Shown: positions 1-11,644 of the stretch, piece after piece
How positions within the stretch are numbered: position 1 is the first letter of the stretch
Layout: every line of letters starts with the position of its first letter
Assembly (NCBI GenBank): GCA_021813555.1
Contig: JAKAKG010000116.1
Location: forward strand, 1-46,256
Length of the DNA: 46,256 bases
Source of the DNA: Acidobacteriota bacterium
GTDB lineage: Bacteria; Acidobacteriota; UBA4820; DSQY01
Reading direction: 5' to 3'
Notes under the pieces: generated by a model
Databases searched by the model: none
What the model saw: the letters and a program-made list of their open reading frames with translations, nothing else
What the model was told of the DNA's origin: nothing
Translations under genes and position numbers: made by a program

Positions 1-188
1 TGGCTCCCCGCAATGGGGAAACGGCGGGAGAACCAAAGGCGCCAAAGGAGGGCCAAAGGCGCCTGGAGGGCGCGCCGATTTGGCGCACGCTGGAAAGGCG
101 CCACGCGCGCTGGCCTTGAGAATCAAGAGGTTGGCGGCGCCCTGGCGTGGCATCGCTATTGCTTATATTTTCTTGGGGGTTAGGGTCC

Positions 189-998
189 ATGCCCATCATC
201 ACCATATCCCGGGGCTCATACTCTGGCGGGAAGGCGCTGGCCGAGTGCTTGGCCGGGCGCCTCGGGTACCGGCTGATCGACCGGGAAACGGTCATCGCCA
301 ACGCGGCGCTGTGCGGCGCTTCGGAGGAGAAGCTCCGCGGCGCCATCGTGGACCCGCCCGGGTTCTGGGACCATTTCAAAGAAGAAAAACGGCGCTACAT
401 GGTGCTGTTCCAGGCGTGCCTCGCCGAGGAGGCCCGCAAGGACGGCCTCATCTACCTGGGCAACGCGGGGCACCTTCTTCTGGGAGGCATAGCCCACGTG
501 CTTCGGGTGCGGGCCATCGCCCCCATGGCCAGCCGCCTGCGCATCGTTCAGGATGACCTTCACCTAAACCGCGAGGACGCGCTGGCGTACATCGAAAAGA
601 GAGACCAGGACAGGGCCAGGTGGACGCACTACCTCTACGGCGTGGATTGGAGCGACCCGGCCCTGTACGACCTCGTCATCAACCTGGAGCGGGCCACCGT
701 GGAGGAGGCGTGCGCGACGGTGACGGCCATGGCCAAGGAGCCCAGCTTCCAGGCCACCGCCGAGTCCTCGGACGCGATGGACAACCTGGCGCTTTGCAGC
801 CGCATCCACGCCATGCTCCTGAAGCACCCTGAAACGAAAGAGCTGCTGCTGGACGTGGAAGCCCATAAGGGATCCGTCGTGCTTCACGGCAAAGTCCGCA
901 ACCGCAAGCAATGGGACGAGGTGGAGGCGGTCGTCCGGCAGACGCCGGGCGTGGACCATCTCGCCATGGATGATCTCGTGCAGGTGCTGGATAGCTGA
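189..998 (+). CDS. Cytidylate kinase-like family protein (Cytidylate_kin2-type) with BON-like C-terminal segment
   Basis: MPIITISRGSYSGGKALAECLAGRLGYRLIDRETV N-terminus; GNAGHLLL, DQDRARW, YGVDWSDPALYDLVINLE motifs; C-terminal BON-like LLLDVEAHKGSVVLHGKVRNRKQWDEVEAVVRQTPGV. Start chosen at internal Met of ORF 147..998. Confidence 0.75.
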   Translation: MPIITISRGSYSGGKALAECLAGRLGYRLIDRETVIANAALCGASEEKLRGAIVDPPGFWDHFKEEKRRYMVLFQACLAEEARKDGLIYLGNAGHLLLGGIAHVLRVRAIAPMASRLRIVQDDLHLNREDALAYIEKRDQDRARWTHYLYGVDWSDPALYDLVINLERATVEEACATVTAMAKEPSFQATAESSDAMDNLALCSRIHAMLLKHPETKELLLDVEAHKGSVVLHGKVRNRKQWDEVEAVVRQTPGVDHLAMDDLVQVLDS

Positions 999-1051: not shown

Positions 1052-2527
1052 ATGGAAACGCCGCTGGGCATCGTTTCAAGCTCCACGCACTATCGCTGGT
1101 ACGTGCTCGGGACGGTGCTCATCGGGGCCTTCATGTCGGCCCTCGACGCGAGCATCGTCAACATCGCCCTGCCCGCCATCAACGTCAGCTATAACTCCCG
1201 GCTCGGCGTGGTGGAGTGGGTGTCCCTCTCCTACCTGCTCGCGCTCACCCTCATGCTGCCCGCCATGGGCCGTCTGGCCGACATGTTCGGGCGCAAGCCG
1301 CTCTACAACCTCGGCTTCGTGGTCTTCACCGTGGGATCCTACTTCTGCGGCTCCGCGCCCGGCATCGTGTCCCTCATCTTGTGGCGGGTGGTCCAGGCCA
1401 TGGGCGCGGCGCTCCTCCAGTCTAACAGCCTCGCGCTGATTACCCAGGTCTTCCCCGAGCGGGAGCGGGGGCGCGCCATAGGGATTCAGGGCGCGGTCCA
1501 GGCCGCCGCCATGTCCTTGGGGCCCTACCTGGGAGGCATGCTCGTCAAACACATCTCCTGCCAGGCCATCTTCTACGTGAACGTGCCCATCGGGATCGCG
1601 GGGACGATCGTGGCCCTGCTGGTGCTGCCCAAACCCGCGCCGCGCAAGGGCCCCGTGTCCATGGACTACGCCGGAGGCCTGGCCTTTTCGGTGGCCCTCG
1701 CCTCGCTCATGCTCGTGCTCACGCAGCTCACGGCCCACAACTGGGTTTCGGCCCACGCGGGCCTGCTCCTTTTCGTGGCCGCGGCCAGCTTCGTGGCCTT
1801 CTTCCTCATCGAACGGCGCACCGCCGAGCCATTCATCAAGCTGAGCCTCTTCAAGGAGCGGAACTTCACCATCGGCAACGTCTCGGGCATGCTCTCCTAC
1901 ATGGCCCTCTTCGCGCCCATGTTCCTGCTGCCCTTTTACCTTGAGAAGATTCTGAAGCTCGACCCGGAGAAGGCGGGCGTCCTCCTGACGCCCGTTCCCA
2001 TCGCCCTCTCCGTGGTCGCCCTTTTGAGCGGGTACTTCTCGGACAAGCTCGGCGTGCGGCTCTTCACCGTGGGCGGCATGGCGCTCACGGCGGTGAGCCT
2101 CTTCGCCTTGAGCACCCTCCACCACGATTCCACTCTTTTTGACGTGGTGTGGCGGCTCGCCCTCCTCGGCGTGAGCCTGGGGCTCTTCACGCCGCCCAAC
2201 AACCGCTCCGTCATGTGCGCCGCGCCGGAGGAGGATCTCAGCGTGGCCGGCGGGCTCCTCAACATGATGCGGAGCCTGGGCATGATGTGCGGCGTGGCCT
2301 TCGCCCAGATCATCTACAGCGTGGAGCTGCACGACCTTCTGGAGGTGGCGGCCCAGGATGCCGAGCCGGTCACCAAGCGGCTGCGCCACCACGACATGAT
2401 GATGAGCTTCGACAAGGTCTACTTCACCATGATCTTCGTGGCCCTCGTGGCGGCGGTCCTTTCCCTCGTGAAGGAGCGGGAAGAGCTGGCGGGCCGCAAG
2501 CACACCGACCTGCCCATGGAGTTCTAG
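1052..2527 (+). CDS. MFS transporter, DHA2 (EmrB/QacA-like) family
   Basis: 491 aa with many TM segments; LDASIVNIALPAI, GRLADMFGRKPLY and the RVVQAMGAALLQSNSLALI/ERGRAIGIQGAVQAAAMSLGPYLGG region typical of DHA2 exporters. Confidence 0.9.
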   Translation: METPLGIVSSSTHYRWYVLGTVLIGAFMSALDASIVNIALPAINVSYNSRLGVVEWVSLSYLLALTLMLPAMGRLADMFGRKPLYNLGFVVFTVGSYFCGSAPGIVSLILWRVVQAMGAALLQSNSLALITQVFPERERGRAIGIQGAVQAAAMSLGPYLGGMLVKHISCQAIFYVNVPIGIAGTIVALLVLPKPAPRKGPVSMDYAGGLAFSVALASLMLVLTQLTAHNWVSAHAGLLLFVAAASFVAFFLIERRTAEPFIKLSLFKERNFTIGNVSGMLSYMALFAPMFLLPFYLEKILKLDPEKAGVLLTPVPIALSVVALLSGYFSDKLGVRLFTVGGMALTAVSLFALSTLHHDSTLFDVVWRLALLGVSLGLFTPPNNRSVMCAAPEEDLSVAGGLLNMMRSLGMMCGVAFAQIIYSVELHDLLEVAAQDAEPVTKRLRHHDMMMSFDKVYFTMIFVALVAAVLSLVKEREELAGRKHTDLPMEF

Positions 2528-4050
2528 CAGGGGCGTTCGCCGAGGCCGGGGACCATGGCGGCGGGGAGGAGGACGGTGAAGGTGGTCCCCTCCTGGGGAG
2601 AGCTTTGGACGCGGATGTCGCCGCCGTGCTGGCGGACGATGCCGAGGCTGACAGAGAGGCCGAGGCCCGTGCCCTTGCCCTTGGATTTGGTGGTGAAGAA
2701 GGGGTCGAAGATGTAGGGCAGTACGTGGGGGGGGATGCCGTGGCCGTCGTCCGACACCCGCACGCTCACGTAGCCGGGATCTTCCTTGCCGCCGCCGGCG
2801 GAGATCCGCACGCTTCCGCCCTTCTGCACGGCGTCGAGGGCGTTGAGCAGGAGGTTCAGGAAGACCTGGCTGAGGGACTGCTTGTCTCCGTACACGGGGG
2901 GCAGGTTCTCGGGGATGTCCATGAGGATCTTGGCCCCCGTGAGCTTGATCTGGTTGGCGGCGAGCCCCGCCGTCCGGCGGAGGAGCTCGGCCATGTCCAG
3001 GCTCTCCGTCTCCATCTCGCCTTCGCGGGCGAAATCGAGGAGGTTCCTCACGATCTTCTGGGAGCGGCCCGCCTCGCCCACGAGGTCGTCCACCATCTCC
3101 AGGCGCTCCGCGTCGCTGAGGGTGGTGTAATCCTCCTTCAACATCTCGGCCGTGAGCATGATGTTGTTGATAGGATTGTTGAGTTCGTGCGCCACACCGG
3201 CGGTGAGGGTGCCCACGGCGCGGAGTTTGTGGGATTGAACCAGGATCTCCTGCCGGTGGGCCACCTCCCTCATCATGGTGTTGAGGGCCACGGCCAGATC
3301 TGAAAACTCATCCCTGTACTTTCTCGCGGGCGTGATGGGCGTGAAGTCGCCCGTGGCGATGCGCTGGGCCGTGGCCATGAGGCGGCTGAGGGGGCCGAGC
3401 ATCTGCCGCGCCAGAAAGTTCACGATGAAGGCCACCAGAAGCAGGAGGACGATGAGGAAGGCCACGGGCAGCCGCTTGAAAAGGGCGAGGGTCTGGTTGA
3501 CGCTGTTGCGCTCCTTCTGCGACAGCTCCATGGCGAAGGAGACCATCTGCGAGCCGTGGGCCCTCACCTCCACCTCCACGGCGGCCTGTTTGGCGGCCCG
3601 GTCCGCGGGGGCGTTCTTCTCCATCTCCACGAGGCTCTGGATCAGCGCCTCGTAGCGGTCCAGGTGGTCGCGCATGCGCCGCAGATCGGCGGCGGAGAGC
3701 ACCTTGAAGACCTCCGCCTCGGAGGAGCCCAGCAGTTTCCGCGCGTTGGCCACGTGCTCCTGCACGTCCTGAAGGTTCGTGCCGTAGAGAAAGTAGTTCT
3801 TCTCAAAGCGCCGTGCCTGCTGAATCTCAAGGGTGTAGCGGTCCGCCACCTCCAGGAACTTGAGGCGGACTTCGAGGCGGGAGAGCATGATCCAGGCGGC
3901 GGCGGTGACGGCGGCGGCGAGGAGGAAGAACGCCAAAAAACCCAGGGCGAGCCTCGCCCTGATGCCGAAGCTCGGCCGCTGCAAAAGGGCCTTTTCGGCG
4001 CTGCTCACCTCGCCCGGCTCGGGCGCACCCGTCAAGGATGGCTCCGCCAT
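2524..4050 (-). CDS. Membrane sensor histidine kinase (two TM, HAMP, HisKA, HATPase_c)
   Basis: HELNNPINNIMLTAEML H-box, NLLLNALDAV N-box, VSDDGHGIPP and GKGTGLGLSVSLGIV G-boxes; start trimmed to the M(M)AEPS site after AAGGAG. Confidence 0.9.
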   Translation of the reverse strand: MAEPSLTGAPEPGEVSSAEKALLQRPSFGIRARLALGFLAFFLLAAAVTAAAWIMLSRLEVRLKFLEVADRYTLEIQQARRFEKNYFLYGTNLQDVQEHVANARKLLGSSEAEVFKVLSAADLRRMRDHLDRYEALIQSLVEMEKNAPADRAAKQAAVEVEVRAHGSQMVSFAMELSQKERNSVNQTLALFKRLPVAFLIVLLLLVAFIVNFLARQMLGPLSRLMATAQRIATGDFTPITPARKYRDEFSDLAVALNTMMREVAHRQEILVQSHKLRAVGTLTAGVAHELNNPINNIMLTAEMLKEDYTTLSDAERLEMVDDLVGEAGRSQKIVRNLLDFAREGEMETESLDMAELLRRTAGLAANQIKLTGAKILMDIPENLPPVYGDKQSLSQVFLNLLLNALDAVQKGGSVRISAGGGKEDPGYVSVRVSDDGHGIPPHVLPYIFDPFFTTKSKGKGTGLGLSVSLGIVRQHGGDIRVQSSPQEGTTFTVLLPAAMVPGLGERPC

Positions 4051-4060
4051 CATGAGCTCC

Positions 4061-4948
4061 TTACGGGCCGATGTCCGCGAAGCCGGAGTCTTTCTCCAGG
4101 ACCGCCGCGCGCTGCTTGAGGCGCGTGCTGGCCTTGCGGTAGCCCGCACCGCCGTAGATGACGAGCCAGACGCTCGCCAGGATGAGGGCGCCGTCGAAGA
4201 GGCTCCACCAGGAAAGGCCGAAGTACCTGAAGAGGCTGATGCCCAATGTCAGGAAGGCGAGGCCCGTGCGGACGAAGGCGAGGTAGGTCCGCCCCCACGC
4301 AAGGTCCGTCCGGTGCAGCGACAGCCGGGTACGCGTCTTGGCCCTGAGAGTGCGGTTCTCGGCCAGGTCGTTTCGTACTTGGGCCAGGTCCGTCCGCCGG
4401 ATGGAGAAGTCCGTTCGCTGCTCGGCCAGCTCGTTGCGCTTGGCGGCCATGTCCGTGCGGGCGGAGGACAAGCGCGTCCTGTTGTCGGCCATCTCCGTGC
4501 GCCGCTGGGCCTGGGCGGTGCGGTCCTCGGCGAGCCGGGTGCGCATCTGCGCCAGGTCCGTCCGCCCCTCCGCGAGGTGGGTGCGCCGCCGGGCCATGTC
4601 GGTCCGTCCCACGGCCAGGTCGGTCCGCTGGTTCGCCAGGGCCGTGCGCTCGCGGCCCAGCTCCGTCCGGATGTTGGCGAGTTCCGTGCTGCGCGTGGAC
4701 AGGCGCGTCTGCTCCCGCGTGAGGGCGGTCCGCTCCTGGGCCATGGCCGTCTGCTTTTCGGTGTGTTTGGCGGTGGACGAGGAAAAGGTCAGCAGGTTGC
4801 CGACCCCGTCGTCCATGTGCCGCGAGATCTCGTTGCCGGACTTGGCGAGATCGACCTGCGACTGCTCCGCGTCCACGGCCCTGGCGAGCAGGGATTCGAT
4901 CCGCTCGAGGGCCTCGCCCGGTTCTGCTCCGCTGCCTTCCCTGGCCAT
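4061..4948 (-). CDS. DUF202-like membrane protein with long heptad-repeat (LAxxRTD) N-terminal region
   Basis: 295 aa; GGAGG upstream of start; about 23 consecutive 7-residue repeats running into RTDLAWGRTYLAFVRTGLAFLTLGISLFRYFG, which resembles the DUF202 signature, followed by a second TM segment. Confidence 0.75.
   Translation of the reverse strand: MAREGSGAEPGEALERIESLLARAVDAEQSQVDLAKSGNEISRHMDDGVGNLLTFSSSTAKHTEKQTAMAQERTALTREQTRLSTRSTELANIRTELGRERTALANQRTDLAVGRTDMARRRTHLAEGRTDLAQMRTRLAEDRTAQAQRRTEMADNRTRLSSARTDMAAKRNELAEQRTDFSIRRTDLAQVRNDLAENRTLRAKTRTRLSLHRTDLAWGRTYLAFVRTGLAFLTLGISLFRYFGLSWWSLFDGALILASVWLVIYGGAGYRKASTRLKQRAAVLEKDSGFADIGP
4262..4744 (-). repeat. Coding tandem repeat, 21-bp/7-aa period, about 23 units, consensus [L/M]-A-x-x-R-T-[D/E]
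   Basis: Residues 69-229 of the 4061..4948 product: L/M/F recurs at 69,76,83,90,97,104,111... with R-T at fixed offset and no insertion or deletion. Confidence 0.9.
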
Positions 4949-4978: not shown

Positions 4979-5800
4979 TCAGGTGGTAAATTCCATGCTC
5001 GAAGGGCAGCCCGGCTCGTACTCCACGGCCGTCACCCCGGGCACAGCACTCACGATTTCCATGACCTCGGCGAGGGGGGCGTCCTCCAAATAGGGTCCCT
5101 CCAGCACCACGGCTCCTCCCCTGGCGCGGGCCCCCACTTCCAGCTCGTGGGTCCGGGGATCGCTCACCAGGGCCGCCTCCACGCGGGTGGCCAGGAACAG
5201 GTTCGCCATGGCCTCCATGGACTGGGGCGTGTGCTGGAACTCTTTCTCGCGCAGCGCGCCCACGATCATGTTGCAGATGGCGGGAACGGTGAGCCGGTCC
5301 AGGGAGAACCACGCGTCGTAGAGGTGCGGGTCCCTGATGTCGCACCCGTAGACGAACCGGGCCCAGCGGACCCGCTCCTCGTCCTCCTGGAGCACGGCCT
5401 CGCTCGCCTCCTCCTTGGACAGGTTGAGGCGCTTCATGGCGTTCTCCACCCGCCGCGCCTTGGTGGTCGTGATGCGGACCCTGAGGCAGCAGGAGAGGTT
5501 GGGCAGGAGCAGGTGGCCCGCGTGGCCGTGGTAGACCACGTTGCCCTCGCGCACGAACTCCAGCAGGGCCGACCGCATGAGGATCAGGTAAGACCGGCGC
5601 AGCCGGCTGAACTGCTCGTAGGCGCGGGTGGCGTGGTTCAGGCCGTCCACAACCTTCTTGGCCAGCTCCCCGCCCTGGGCATCAACCACCGCCACCAGGT
5701 CTTCACGGGAGACGGGGCGGAGGCTGAGCTGCTCGGAGAGGCACGCGGCCAGGTCGCGCCCTCCCGACATGGTTCCGCGTGAGATCAAGACGACTGCCAT
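4979..5800 (-). CDS. Cytidylate kinase-like family protein with BON-like C-terminus
   Basis: MAVVLISRGTMSGGRDLAACLSEQL; YHGHAGHLLL; VYGCDIRDPHLYD; paralogous to 189..998 and 13584..14393. Confidence 0.75.
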   Translation of the reverse strand: MAVVLISRGTMSGGRDLAACLSEQLSLRPVSREDLVAVVDAQGGELAKKVVDGLNHATRAYEQFSRLRRSYLILMRSALLEFVREGNVVYHGHAGHLLLPNLSCCLRVRITTTKARRVENAMKRLNLSKEEASEAVLQEDEERVRWARFVYGCDIRDPHLYDAWFSLDRLTVPAICNMIVGALREKEFQHTPQSMEAMANLFLATRVEAALVSDPRTHELEVGARARGGAVVLEGPYLEDAPLAEVMEIVSAVPGVTAVEYEPGCPSSMEFTT

Positions 5801-5856: not shown

Positions 5857-6270
5857 TCAAGGGACGTCGGGCACCGCCGCGTGGGCGACGCCGTGGAAGC
5901 CCAGGGAGTCGGCGGCCTTGGCGATGACGTCCCGAAGCTCCTGGGGTTTGAAGGGCTTGGCGATGAAATCGAAGGCGCCCTTGGCCTCCGCCTCCCGGGC
6001 CATTTCCACGGTGGCGTAGCCGGTGATCATGATGACCCGGGTCTCCGGGTTGCGCTCCATGACCCGCTCCAGGACCTCGATGCCGTCCATGTCGTCCATG
6101 CGGATGTCCGTCACGACGATGTGGAAGGCCTTCTCCTTGAGGCGCTCCAGCGCGGGCCCGGGGGCCTCGAAAATCTCCACGTCGCATCCGATCTTGGCGA
6201 GGGCGGGCTGCAAGCGCCTGCCCACGATGGGCTCGTCGTCGAGCACCAGTACGCTCAGTCTCTCGTCCAT
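5857..6270 (-). CDS. Single-domain response regulator (receiver)
   Basis: VLVLDDEPIVGRRL, VVTDIRMDDMDGIEVL, VIMITGYATVEMA, FIAKPFKP: acidic pair, phospho-Asp, T and K of the CheY fold. Confidence 0.9.
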   Translation of the reverse strand: MDERLSVLVLDDEPIVGRRLQPALAKIGCDVEIFEAPGPALERLKEKAFHIVVTDIRMDDMDGIEVLERVMERNPETRVIMITGYATVEMAREAEAKGAFDFIAKPFKPQELRDVIAKAADSLGFHGVAHAAVPDVP

Positions 6271-7440: not shown

Positions 7441-8946
7441 TCAATCCATCTTGAGCCATTTCATCATGGACGCTAACACCGATCCGTACAGGAACGCGAT
7501 GACCGGAGCCATGAGGGCCACGAGGACCGCGGCGAACCAGGGAGCGGCCTTGTGGGCCGGCCCCCCGAGCAGATCGATGAGCTTGTCCTGCCACAGGAAG
7601 ACCCCGCAGTAGATGAGCACCACGAGCACGCCCGCCACGGCCCCTCTGGCCACTTCTCGGCCGCCGAGGTGCAGCTTGGCGGCCAGGTCGGCGGTGGAGA
7701 GCACGGGCGCCTTCACGTGGTCGCCCAGGAACATGCTCAGCTCCCGGACCAGGCGGGTGCGGGTGGCGGGGGGCTTGTCGAGGAAGAGGTCGCCCAGCAC
7801 CACGAGGCTGTAGGGGATGCTCGGGCTGATCACGGCGGAGAGCCGGTCGCGGCTGCCCGAGACGCGCTGGCCGCCGCCGGAGCGGCCCTCGTGGACGAGC
7901 GCCTCCAGGGTCTCCTGGAAGGACTTTTCCTCGGAGGAGGGCCGGGCCTCCGGCACGTCGTCCTCCACGCCGCCCGTGCGCGCCTCCATGGCGGCGGACC
8001 GCCCTACGGCCACGGCCACGGCGTCCGAGGGCGCGTCGCCGGGCTTGTACTGGAGGAGCTCCACGGCGGCCCCCCAGCGGCGGGCCAGCTCGTTCACCTC
8101 CCGGAAAGTCTCCGAATCGGGCTTGAACGCCTCCTGGATCCAGAGCACGTTGGTGCTGGCCATGGTGCAGCGGATCTCCCGGCAGCCGGGAAGGTCCCCC
8201 ACCGCGTCCGAGATGAGGGACGCGGCCCTGGCCTGAAGGGGCACGTAGGTGATGGTCAGCACCCCGTCGTTGGCCCGCACCGTGAGATCCACGTCGGCCG
8301 TGCGGTCGTCCAGGGAGAGCTTGATGCGCGCCTGGGCCTGGAGGAACCGGTCCTGCATGGCCCGCTGGCTCGCCGGAGTGGGCCTGAAATCGGGGAGCTC
8401 GGCGACGCCGCAGAGGGCCGTGGCGGCGTTCTCCAGGTTCAGGTTCTCCAGGTTGGCCACGAAGTCGTACATGCGCGAGTCGTCCATGTCGATGCCGTGG
8501 ACGAAGCGGACCCAGGCGAGGATGTCGCCGTCGATGTCCCTGAGAAACTTCTCCGCCTTCTCGCGGCTCAGCTTGAGGCGGGTCATGACGGTTTCCACCC
8601 GCTGGCCGTGCTCGGGCAAGACGTGGAGCCTGAGCACGTGGCTCACGCCGGGCAGCAGGCGGTGTCCCGCCCTGCCGTAGTAGACCAGGTTGCCGTCCTG
8701 CGCCTTCTCGCAGATGGTGGCCGTGGCCACGGCCAGGTAGCGGTCTTTCAGCCGGGCCATGCGCTCCTGGACCGAGGGCCGCTTCACCATGGCCACTTCC
8801 AGCTTGCCCACCGGAATGCCGGCCTCGTTCGCCCGGGCCACCACGTCTTCCCGGCTCATGTAGCCATAGCCCAGCTTCTGCGCAAGGCTCTTGGCCACCC
8901 TTTCCCCACCGCTGAACGGAACGCTGCAGATAAAGATGATTGGCAT
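7441..8946 (-). CDS. Membrane-anchored cytidylate kinase-like protein with long C-terminal extension and two C-terminal TM segments
   Basis: MPIIFICSVPFSGGERVAKSLAQKLGYGYMSREDVV; YYGRAGHRLLPGVSHVLRL; C-terminal GAVAGVLVVLIYCGVFLW and WFAAVLVALMAPVIAFLYGSVL. Start at internal Met of ORF 7441..9120. Confidence 0.7.
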   Translation of the reverse strand: MPIIFICSVPFSGGERVAKSLAQKLGYGYMSREDVVARANEAGIPVGKLEVAMVKRPSVQERMARLKDRYLAVATATICEKAQDGNLVYYGRAGHRLLPGVSHVLRLHVLPEHGQRVETVMTRLKLSREKAEKFLRDIDGDILAWVRFVHGIDMDDSRMYDFVANLENLNLENAATALCGVAELPDFRPTPASQRAMQDRFLQAQARIKLSLDDRTADVDLTVRANDGVLTITYVPLQARAASLISDAVGDLPGCREIRCTMASTNVLWIQEAFKPDSETFREVNELARRWGAAVELLQYKPGDAPSDAVAVAVGRSAAMEARTGGVEDDVPEARPSSEEKSFQETLEALVHEGRSGGGQRVSGSRDRLSAVISPSIPYSLVVLGDLFLDKPPATRTRLVRELSMFLGDHVKAPVLSTADLAAKLHLGGREVARGAVAGVLVVLIYCGVFLWQDKLIDLLGGPAHKAAPWFAAVLVALMAPVIAFLYGSVLASMMKWLKMD

Positions 8947-9064
8947 AAGGTCCCCCAGACTCCCCGACCCCTCCGCCCGTTTCGGCCCGCCCCCAGGCGT
9001 GCCCCCCGGTTCCGCGGCGGCCTTCCGAAGCACCGCTCGCGTACCAACGCGCCCTACAAACCCG

Positions 9065-11644
9065 TCACGTGCGGCGCGGCGCCGGCCGCGGCTGCGTGGT
9101 GACGGCCGCCCCCTCCGCACCCTCCGCCAGAAACCCGTAGTTGCCTTCCACGAACTGCTTCACGTACCACTTCATGGCGTGTTCGCCCCCCATGTACATG
9201 TCGAGCTGGCCCGCCGACGCCAGGAGGCGGCCCACGATGTCGAGCTTGGCCTCCGTTTCCTGCGCCGATCCTTTCTTGAACCAGGCGTTCACGATGTCGC
9301 CCCGGCGTTCGGCCTGAAATCCGTAGTGGCAGAGACATGCCTCGATGAAGCAGGCCCGCAGGATCCTTCGCGACCGGCTGGCCCCGCCTCCCGCGAAACG
9401 GAAGGAGATGTAGTTGTTGTTGGGCACGGCCGAGACGCAGGCATCCACGAGCGAGTAGTGGTAGGCGAGGCGGGAGTTGAGGTTCATGTATTCGTCCGCC
9501 ACGAGAAGGTAGCTCTTGTCGCCGAGGGGCCGCTGGGCCGAGTGGGACGAGAAGGAGCTGGCCATGACGGAGGCGATCCCCGCGAGGCTGGCGGCCATGT
9601 CCCGGTTCCAGCTCACGCCGGGATGGCTCGCGCCCCTCCAGAGGGCTTGAAAGGGCCGCGAGACGATGTGTTCGGGGCGAACGTCCGTGGATGAGGGATC
9701 GTCCATCACCAGCCCTCCGCCCAGGTCGAGGACGTGAAGGTTGACGGGAATCGGGGCCACCAGGCGCTTGGCACATCGCGGCCCCCGCTCCAGCTCCACG
9801 TCGTTCACCGCGAACATGGCCTCGATGGCCTTTTCGTGGCAGTAGCGCAGCACGTCGTGGGCCGATTTGCACCCCGAGGGGCGGAAGCTGAAGGCCGCCG
9901 GGTCCACGAGGTGCAGGGTGAGGAAGCGCCCGCTGATGGGGTCGGCGTCCCTCCGCGCATACCGATCGGGCAAGGCCACCTCCCCCTCCTTCCGGGGCCA
10001 GCGCAGTCCTTCGTACAGTCTGGGTTGGACCGCGTCCAGGCTCACGGCGTCATCGGGCTTGATCGTATCAAAGACGTCCTTCATCTGGAAGACGGAGGGG
10101 ACCTTGAACTCCCTCAGCAGGGCAGCGCCGTGTCCCGTCACGTTTCCCCCCTCGGCCACGAGGCCCACGATGCGGGGGAAGACCTTCACGATCTCGGGCG
10201 AAGGGCGGCGCATGACCAGCAGCGCCCCTTGGGGCGTTTTGCTTAGATCCTGCACGTCTTCCACGAGGAAGGCACGCCCCGAGGCCCGTCCCGGATAGAC
10301 GGTCTGGCCGCCGGCGAGAAGCGGTGCCCCCCGGGTCCGCACCTTCTGGCGCGCCTTGGGGTCGGCCAGGGACAGGGGCCGGGTCTGGACGATCCAGAGG
10401 TTGCCCTCCTCGTCCAGGAGCCACTCCACGTCCTGGGGCGCGTTGAAGTGGGCCTCCAGGTGCACGGCCCACTCGGCGAGAACTTGGAGGTCCTCGGTCT
10501 GAAGGCTGGGGGCCGAGGCTTCGTCCGGGCTCGCCTGCTCCCGGGTCAGCCCCCCGCCGGGCATGGGGAGGAGGCGCCCTTCCTTGCGCGCGATCCGCCG
10601 TTCCATGACCGTGTGGCCGCCCCGCCTGGAAACCACGAAAAGGTCCGCCGCGGTCTGTCCGCTGGCTACGTCTAAGGCCAGCCCCCTGGTGGCCGCGATC
10701 CACGCCGAATCCTTCCCCGGATCGCCCGGGTCGCGGGTGTACATGATGCCTGAAGCCCGTGCCCGGAGGGTGGGCATGAAGAGGACGGCCATGGGGCTGT
10801 CCACTTCCATCCGCCCCGTGCTGACCCGGTACGACAGGGCGCGCGCGCTGAAGCGGCTGGCCACCACGCGCTTATACGCTTCCGTGACTCCCGCCGGGGC
10901 CACGTTGATGAGGCTCAGGAACTGGCCCGCGAAGGTGCCCGTCCCCCCTTCGCCCACGGCGCTCGAACGGACGGCCAGCCCCAGCCCCCCCGTCTCCAGC
11001 GCCGCGGCCCGCTCGCTCACGGCCACTTCCACCGCCCTGGGCAGGTCCGCCGCCATGACGAGGGCCGACAGCCGGGCCGAGGCCTCCTGGAAGCCCTGAA
11101 GCTCGTCCAAATCCAGGCCTTCCACGGTGTCCCTGATGTGCTTCCACAGGGGGACGCCGCAGAAGCGCCAGTAGGATTCCGTGGTGATGACGAACCCTTC
11201 GGGAACGGGGAGCCCGAGCCTGTTCTTGACCTCCCCCAAAGCCGCCGCCTTGCCTCCCGCCTCTGGCGCGGCTTCCGCGCCGATCTCGTGGAGCCAGACG
11301 GAGAGGCGCGGCGAGACCAGCGCCTGCCGCGCGGCGACGGAACCTTCCACGTCCCGGCGCTGGGAGGCGAGAGCCTTCCAGAGGACCGGCTGGCGCTCCC
11401 CCTCCAGCCGTTCCAGGGCGGCCACGGCCCCCTCGGCCTTGTCAAAGACGGCGGGCACGCGGTCCCCCAGCACGTCCGCCCTCGGAGGGGCATAGCGAAG
11501 ATCTTCCTGAAGCCCCGCCAGGAGTTCCAGGCAGTCGTTGTTGAGGGTGAGCAGCTCTTTGAAGCTGCCGTACTTCTCCCGGACTCTCGTTTCGGCGGGA
11601 GCCGCCGCGGCAGGCTCCTTCCCTTTGCGCCACCATGCACTCAT
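9065..11644 (-). CDS. PEP-synthase-like phosphotransferase: PPDK_N ATP-grasp + phospho-His swivel + unassigned C-terminal domain
   Basis: GGKAAALGEVKNRLGLPVPEGFVITTESYWRF, AVRSSAVGEGGTGTFAGQFLS, FNAPQDVEWLLDEEGNLWIVQTRPL, GGNVTGHGAALLREFKVPSV; no recognisable PEP/pyruvate TIM barrel. Confidence 0.8.
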   Translation of the reverse strand: MSAWWRKGKEPAAAAPAETRVREKYGSFKELLTLNNDCLELLAGLQEDLRYAPPRADVLGDRVPAVFDKAEGAVAALERLEGERQPVLWKALASQRRDVEGSVAARQALVSPRLSVWLHEIGAEAAPEAGGKAAALGEVKNRLGLPVPEGFVITTESYWRFCGVPLWKHIRDTVEGLDLDELQGFQEASARLSALVMAADLPRAVEVAVSERAAALETGGLGLAVRSSAVGEGGTGTFAGQFLSLINVAPAGVTEAYKRVVASRFSARALSYRVSTGRMEVDSPMAVLFMPTLRARASGIMYTRDPGDPGKDSAWIAATRGLALDVASGQTAADLFVVSRRGGHTVMERRIARKEGRLLPMPGGGLTREQASPDEASAPSLQTEDLQVLAEWAVHLEAHFNAPQDVEWLLDEEGNLWIVQTRPLSLADPKARQKVRTRGAPLLAGGQTVYPGRASGRAFLVEDVQDLSKTPQGALLVMRRPSPEIVKVFPRIVGLVAEGGNVTGHGAALLREFKVPSVFQMKDVFDTIKPDDAVSLDAVQPRLYEGLRWPRKEGEVALPDRYARRDADPISGRFLTLHLVDPAAFSFRPSGCKSAHDVLRYCHEKAIEAMFAVNDVELERGPRCAKRLVAPIPVNLHVLDLGGGLVMDDPSSTDVRPEHIVSRPFQALWRGASHPGVSWNRDMAASLAGIASVMASSFSSHSAQRPLGDKSYLLVADEYMNLNSRLAYHYSLVDACVSAVPNNNYISFRFAGGGASRSRRILRACFIEACLCHYGFQAERRGDIVNAWFKKGSAQETEAKLDIVGRLLASAGQLDMYMGGEHAMKWYVKQFVEGNYGFLAEGAEGAAVTTQPRPAPRRT

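Follow-up and report, generated by a model that had tools for sequence, protein, structure and literature searches.

We describe a putative two-gene module in Acidobacteriota, in which a DUF202-type membrane protein carrying a long N-terminal rod of exact heptads is encoded next to a kinase-like protein of one particular clade. The gene lies near the start of a stretch of DNA of 46,256 nucleotides, hereafter called the window. With moderate confidence, the best reading of our data is that the rod protein would be a membrane-anchored cytoplasmic helical stalk on which the kinase-like partner docks. No description of the pair was found in the literature searched, a search thin on subscription papers. 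The whole-heptad series of rod lengths, the conservation of an Arg-Thr pair, the pairing with a single kinase-like clade and the sulfate-reduction setting are new with respect to the preliminary description of this locus. All features discussed below are located in Table 1.

Table 1. Location of the rod gene, its parts and its neighbours in the window
Feature	Position	Strand	Extent or remark	Basis or conservation
Rod-DUF202 gene	4061..4948	-	295 aa	ORF and translation; 20 orthologs
N-terminal tail	4763..4948	-	residues 1-62	poorly conserved
Distal tip	4577..4762	-	residues 63-124: HTEKQTAMAQERTALTREQTRLSTRSTELANIRTELGRERT...	most conserved stretch
23 exact heptads (L/M)AxxRTx	4262..4744	-	residues 69-229	sequence reading
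Approximate place of the 14 residues (two heptads) by which the window protein exceeds 21-heptad orthologs	4472..4513	-	exact position among repeats ambiguous	alignment
DUF202 domain	4130..4312	-	residues 213-273	Pfam PF02656
Predicted TM1	4220..4285	-	residues ~222-243, unbroken with rod helix	hydropathy; AlphaFold helix 10-243
Predicted TM2	4139..4204	-	residues ~249-270	hydropathy; AlphaFold helix 249-286
Cytidylate_kin2 partner gene	4979..5800	-	273 aa, weak C-terminal BON-like region; 30-nt gap to rod gene	Pfam, neighbourhood, clade, fold
Altered partner P-loop SRGTMSGGR	5756..5782	-	residues 7-15	no Lys at Walker-A Lys position, 20 rod-linked copies
HAMP histidine kinase gene	2524..4053	-	likely start 4053 (MMAEPSL...), 7 nt past rod stop	adjacent in some relatives only
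Response regulator receiver-domain gene	5857..6270	-	upstream of partner gene	not conserved in all loci

The preliminary description had read about 23 exact heptads over about 161 residues, free of insertions and deletions and passing in register into the C-terminal part of the protein. Both points are borne out: 23 units follow one another without a gap over 161 residues, and the next seven residues, LAFLTLG, keep the register up to the membrane domain. Among the 24 listed units of the window protein, position 5 is Arg in 21 and position 6 is Thr in 21. Using the strict pattern [LM][AS]xxRT in one register, 15 of the 23 window units match, the maximum being 2 in 2000 composition shuffles. Over 425 ortholog units, Arg and Thr each reach 90% at their own heptad positions. 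A degenerate stretch, still in register, lies N-terminal to residue 69, with units such as LAKKRTE and HTEQQTA in orthologs. At 1.5 Å per residue, the 161-residue heptad stretch would be about 24 nm long, and the rods of the family would range from about 16 to 27 nm.

Orthologs were searched using one genome per species. Twenty were found, of which 19 are intact and one is truncated by a contig end. Most are labelled Acidobacteria, together with single Gemmatimonadetes, Myxococcales and Candidatus Aminicenantes records and two simply labelled 'bacterium'. A viral origin of the rod was ruled out, none of 20 pattern matches in viral contigs being a relative. The number of heptads was counted between the anchors MAxERTALTRE and RTGLA(F/L), in the 19 intact orthologs as well as in the window gene. 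It is a whole number in all 20 members: 15, 16 (three members), 17 (two), 21 (eight), 22, 23 (four) and 26. The periodicity is a property of all intact orthologs and not of the window protein alone. Heptad number was also mapped on a tree of the repeat-free partner gene, which requires it to have changed at least eight times. If lengths varied independently of the heptad, the probability that eight changes are all multiples of seven would be roughly (1/7)^8, an arithmetic that ignores the whole-unit bias of repeat slippage.

The rod had been proposed to result from the tandem amplification of DUF202's own signature. In ordinary acidobacterial DUF202 proteins, 2 to 6 units of this heptad directly precede TM1 and keep the register of the rod. 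One ortholog, L024, has a run of five heptads that hardly differ in their DNA sequence and form a 42-bp (two-heptad) tandem (L024:9195-9369), which appears to be a repeat-number change in progress. Because rod lengths are whole heptads, because of this 42-bp tandem and because ordinary DUF202 proteins already hold 2 to 6 heptads, the rod can be regarded as an amplified DUF202 signature, an origin well supported by these sequence comparisons. Within the window gene itself the proposal has to be restricted to an ancient event. The similarity among its units is flat with distance, adjacent units being no more alike than far ones, and Tandem Repeats Finder only returned weak arrays with at most 73% matches; these two observations rule out a recent duplication in this gene. 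Amplification would thus be an old event in the window gene, and at least one relative still shows it at work.

Conservation along the rod was quantified by the mean entropy of the alignment columns. It is 2.3 bits for residues 1-40 and 1.8 bits for residues 41-62. Within the rod, it is lowest in the distal tip, remote from the membrane (0.6 bits), followed by the juxtamembrane part (0.75 bits) and the middle region of variable length (1.15 bits). Sorted by heptad position, the entropy in the middle region is 0.00 for Arg, 0.25 for Ala, 0.43 for Thr and 0.96 for Leu, the other three positions being at about 2.1 bits. In heptads 2 and 3 of the tip, the position-5 Arg is replaced by Gln and Ser (LTREQTR LSTRSTE), and these replacements are nearly invariant in all orthologs. 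Plotted at 102.9 degrees per residue, the conserved positions form one continuous arc in the order L-R-A-T, with the three free positions opposite. As judged from the sequences, this arc would fit the g-a-d-e face of a coiled coil, yet with an Arg inside it.

These values bear on the simplest alternative, according to which the rod merely holds something away from the membrane and its repeat number drifts by slippage, selection acting on helix and register alone. The variation from 15 to 26 repeats within the family, the simple 42-bp amplification in L024 and the three nearly free heptad positions are what a length-neutral spacer would be expected to display. However, such a spacer needs neither an invariant mid-rod Arg nor Thr and Ala positions that are nearly invariant and more constrained than Leu, and it does not account for a nearly invariant tip of 62 residues. 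Since Arg is held more strongly than Leu even in the length-variable middle, the rod is not likely to be a neutral spacer, and we consider this explanation rather unlikely. The suggestion of a 'scaffold or spacer' made in the preliminary description is accordingly too weak in its second term, in view of the zero-entropy mid-rod Arg and of the distal block.

The C-terminal part of the protein, suspected to be a DUF202 domain, proves to be related to this family. A DUF202 match was obtained in 20 of the 21 family members, with a best E-value of 6.5e-10. The window protein scores 20.7 bits against PF02656 by hmmscan alone, below the cut-off of 23.4, and 24.1 bits in the genome search, above it. 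On these profile scores, the assignment is borderline for the window gene taken singly and not for the family. An ERTxLAWxRT-type signature is present at the entrance of TM1, reading LAWGRTYLAFVRTGLAF in the window protein, where it aligns with ordinary DUF202 members. Other Pfam and NCBIfam matches on the rod (SMC, HMMR_N, ATG14 and similar) were far below their cut-offs and were discarded as generic coiled-coil similarity.

Hydropathy indicates two transmembrane segments. AlphaFold2, run on a single chain with a 21-sequence alignment, predicts one continuous helix from residue 10 to residue 243, which includes TM1, and a second helix from residue 249 to residue 286, which includes TM2; pLDDT values averaged by block are 91-94 across residues 61-190, and the single-chain pTM is 0.34. 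Foldseek comparison of the rod model with the PDB gave nothing below an E-value of 0.001, generic long helices only. Similarly, a PDB sequence search with the whole window protein gave two chance matches only and no VTC chain. The N-terminus of the rod would lie in the cytoplasm: the protein has no signal sequence, its C-terminal tail is basic, and the topology established for VTC points the same way. The earlier picture of a membrane-tethered cytoplasmic coiled coil is thus supported as regards the tether, through the predicted continuity of rod and TM1, while its cytoplasmic side is our inference.

The hydrophobic moment at 102.9 degrees per residue is modest: each heptad offers one Leu or Met and one Ala, and Arg is found within the conserved face. 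With such a modest hydrophobicity at the classical heptad angle, the rod appears to be no textbook leucine-zipper coil. This feature and the many charged residues would suit a monomeric, salt-bridged single helix forming no oligomer and having no dedicated partner, its operon linkage being historical. We regard this as very improbable, the conserved four-position L-A-R-T face, the near-invariant tip and the strict one-to-one linkage with one kinase-like clade all speaking against it.

This linkage was established from the genomic neighbourhoods. A Cytidylate_kin2 gene is located directly upstream of the rod gene and on the same strand in the window and in 19 of the 19 orthologs with upstream DNA; in these orthologs the tblastn hit ends 18 to 146 nt before the rod gene begins. 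L033, whose contig starts at the rod gene, was left out of this count. The rod-linked partners form one clade (support 100/99), apart from the unlinked paralogs of the same loci, including two in the window. Among 149 acidobacterial genomes, seven have a full-length rod, and these are also the seven with a rod-type partner (at least 48% identity); paralogs of the partner do not exceed 40% identity over their full length. Six of the seven come from a single family, and the co-occurrence counts and p-values, here and below, ignore shared ancestry. An additional partial partner match in G007 (59% identity) ends at a contig edge and falls outside the judged set.

All 20 rod-linked partners match PF13189 (Cytidylate_kin2). 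The predicted fold of the partner is that of a small-molecule kinase, and the closest structures found by Foldseek are the putative kinases 3hdt (E-value 7e-9) and 3fdi and CMP kinases. The P-loop pattern GxxxxGK[ST] is absent from the 20 rod-linked copies, in which the Lys position is occupied by R, E, Q, A, T or similar, while Lys is kept in some unlinked paralogs. The window partner has a weak BON match at its C-terminus (19.4 bits), and a Pfam match to this domain was obtained in 8 of the 20 rod-linked copies. In comparison with Cytidylate_kin2 proteins such as 3hdt and 3fdi, the rod-linked partners are alike in their Pfam match and predicted fold, and they differ by the loss of the P-loop Lys and by the extra C-terminal BON-like region. 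Three divergent Cytidylate_kin2 genes are found in one 9-kb stretch of the window (147-998, 4979-5800 and 7441-9120). The first keeps the P-loop Lys and has a clear BON domain; the third has a C-terminal extension with apparent membrane segments.

The rod gene had also been placed between a kinase-like gene and a histidine kinase. Both neighbours are indeed present in the window, but only the former belongs to the conserved unit, the comparison of ortholog neighbourhoods having ruled out the histidine kinase as a conserved partner. This comparison makes it very unlikely that the rod is a scaffold or accessory of the adjacent two-component system, linking its two components to the membrane. In the window about 7 nt separate the end of the rod gene from the start of the histidine kinase, and kinase and regulator genes are also close to the rod in L016-L020 and L023. 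However, no histidine kinase match was detected in L021, L022, L025, L026, L030-L032 and L034, and L024, L028 and L035 only have weaker matches located 1 to 8 kb away.

Genes of unknown function travel with dsr and apr in acidobacterial sulfate-reduction islands. Positions 15939-36853 of the window correspond to a dissimilatory sulfate-reduction island comprising sat, dsrM/K/O/P-type genes, dsrAB, qmoABC-type genes and aprAB; a cobB-like gene and a second TauE transporter are found close by. DsrK, DsrA, DsrB, QmoC, AprA and AprB pass their NCBIfam equivalog cut-offs, and the sulfate adenylyltransferase passes one subfamily model and one equivalog-domain model; the other Dsr and Qmo names rest on position and Pfam matches. 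The rod also has apr and/or qmo genes as neighbours in L019, L029, L031, L032, L034 and L035. No apr, qmo, dsr or sat match was found within the fetched flanks of L021, L022, L024-L026 and L028. At the genome level, dsrA is present in six of the seven rod genomes, the seventh being 64% complete (Fisher p = 6e-6, genomes taken as independent).

For the Cytidylate_kin2 family as a whole, dsrA was found in 13 of the 14 genomes carrying it among the 149 acidobacterial genomes (p = 2e-14, genomes again taken as independent), which suggests a general role of these proteins in acidobacterial dissimilatory sulfur metabolism. No paper joining 'cytidylate kinase' with dissimilatory sulfite reductase was found in the literature. 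The window also encodes a PEP-synthase-like protein of 859 aa (9065-11644), with PPDK_N and mobile domains, which scores far below every PEP-synthase equivalog cut-off and has relatives in several copies near the rod loci L017 and L018.

Because they are always adjacent and mainly found in sulfate-reducing Acidobacteria, rod and partner look like a two-protein machine. In the stalk model that we favour, a DUF202 pore-type TM1 would run on beyond the membrane, forming a single uninterrupted helix, phased in heptads, on the cytoplasmic side. Amplification of the (L/M)AxxRTx heptad native to the domain would have produced this rod and would still be altering its length. Several rods probably assemble in parallel, with their conserved L-A-R-T faces in contact. 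Docking of the co-encoded kinase-like protein, with its altered P-loop, would take place at the invariant distal tip and perhaps also along the repeated Arg-Thr face; the latter may bind either the partner or an anion. The two proteins would then constitute a stalk-and-effector module, found mainly in Acidobacteria with dissimilatory sulfur metabolism, in which it might play a role. Sulfate respiration makes AMP and PPi, and one may speculate that an NMP-kinase-like protein lacking the P-loop Lys could sense a nucleotide rather than convert it.

The acidobacterial dissimilatory sulfate-reduction islands thus gain a two-gene module that had gone unrecognised. DUF202 proteins are widespread, and no function was assigned to them outside VTC in the papers found. 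The family offers a natural length-graded series, from 15 to 26 units, for testing the role of the DUF202 signature. Its lineage amplified the very heptad that supplies a channel-lining basic residue in VTC, settled on Arg at that position and paired the rod with a single kinase-like clade.

One of the closest known systems is VTC. Its polyphosphate channel is built from five TM1 helices and is lined in the cytoplasmic half by K24, R31 and the basic residues equivalent to them; two phosphates sit in this half (PMC9911596). Mutating these basic residues abolishes the vacuolar polyphosphate store (PMC9911596). A profile built from five ordinary acidobacterial DUF202 proteins and the window domain matched the Vtc1 chains of the PDB (7ytj, 8i6v and 9umg) by hmmsearch with E-values of 0.0014-0.002, and the heptad Args are aligned opposite K24 and R31 of Vtc1. 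The two proteins are thus alike in this profile match and in having Arg or Lys at heptad spacing on TM1. They differ in the number of TMs, three in each Vtc1 subunit and two predicted in the rod protein, and in the long rod, which Vtc1 lacks. Moreover, VTC comprises a TTM polymerase (PF09359), and neither this domain nor PPK1 was detected in the six rod genomes searched. PPK2 is present in five of these six genomes, G084 lacking PPK2 as well as PPK1 and the VTC polymerase domain. Proteins with two tandem PPK2 domains were observed in G000, G001 and G008, genomes in which no PPK1 was found. No paper joining YidH with polyphosphate was found in the literature. By membership tests, the rod protein is a member of DUF202 and not a VTC subunit.

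The alignment with pore-lining residues raises the alternative of an arginine-lined conduit, in which a VTC-like ring of TM1 helices would continue its Arg pore position over 15-26 heptads into the cytoplasm. A polyanion would then follow a positively charged tube or track, and the kinase-like protein would sit at the opening. Besides the Vtc1 match, this is consistent with the rod being an in-register cytoplasmic extension of TM1 and with Arg being its most constrained residue. On the other hand, the absence of the VTC polymerase domain and of PPK1 from the six genomes, and of PPK2 from G084, weakens a specific polyphosphate function of the rod. In addition, the partner resembles a nucleotide kinase and not a polymerase, two TMs are seen instead of the three of each VTC subunit, and rings of Arg would require counter-ions. 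We therefore hold the conduit to be improbable. Slightly more doubtful still is its fullest form: a parallel helical barrel, with an Arg ring in nearly every heptad, that would extend a VTC/DUF202-type anion channel by about 24 nm as a polyanion track of variable length, with the catalytically altered kinase-like protein feeding or gating it at the invariant tip, in sulfate-reducing Acidobacteria.

Two further comparisons are relevant. With DUF202 proteins of the YidH type (PF02656), the rod family has in common the C-terminal domain, the ERTxLAWxRT signature, the TM hairpin and the in-register heptads, but it is distinguished by a repeat number of 15-26 instead of 2-6, by a near-invariant distal tip and by an obligate kinase-like operon partner. 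Some coiled-coil proteins, bacterial chemoreceptors for instance, change length by whole heptads. The rod is similar to such coiled coils in its register-preserving insertions and deletions; unlike them, it is most conserved at the Arg-Thr pair and not in the hydrophobic core, and its units are near-copies of one motif.
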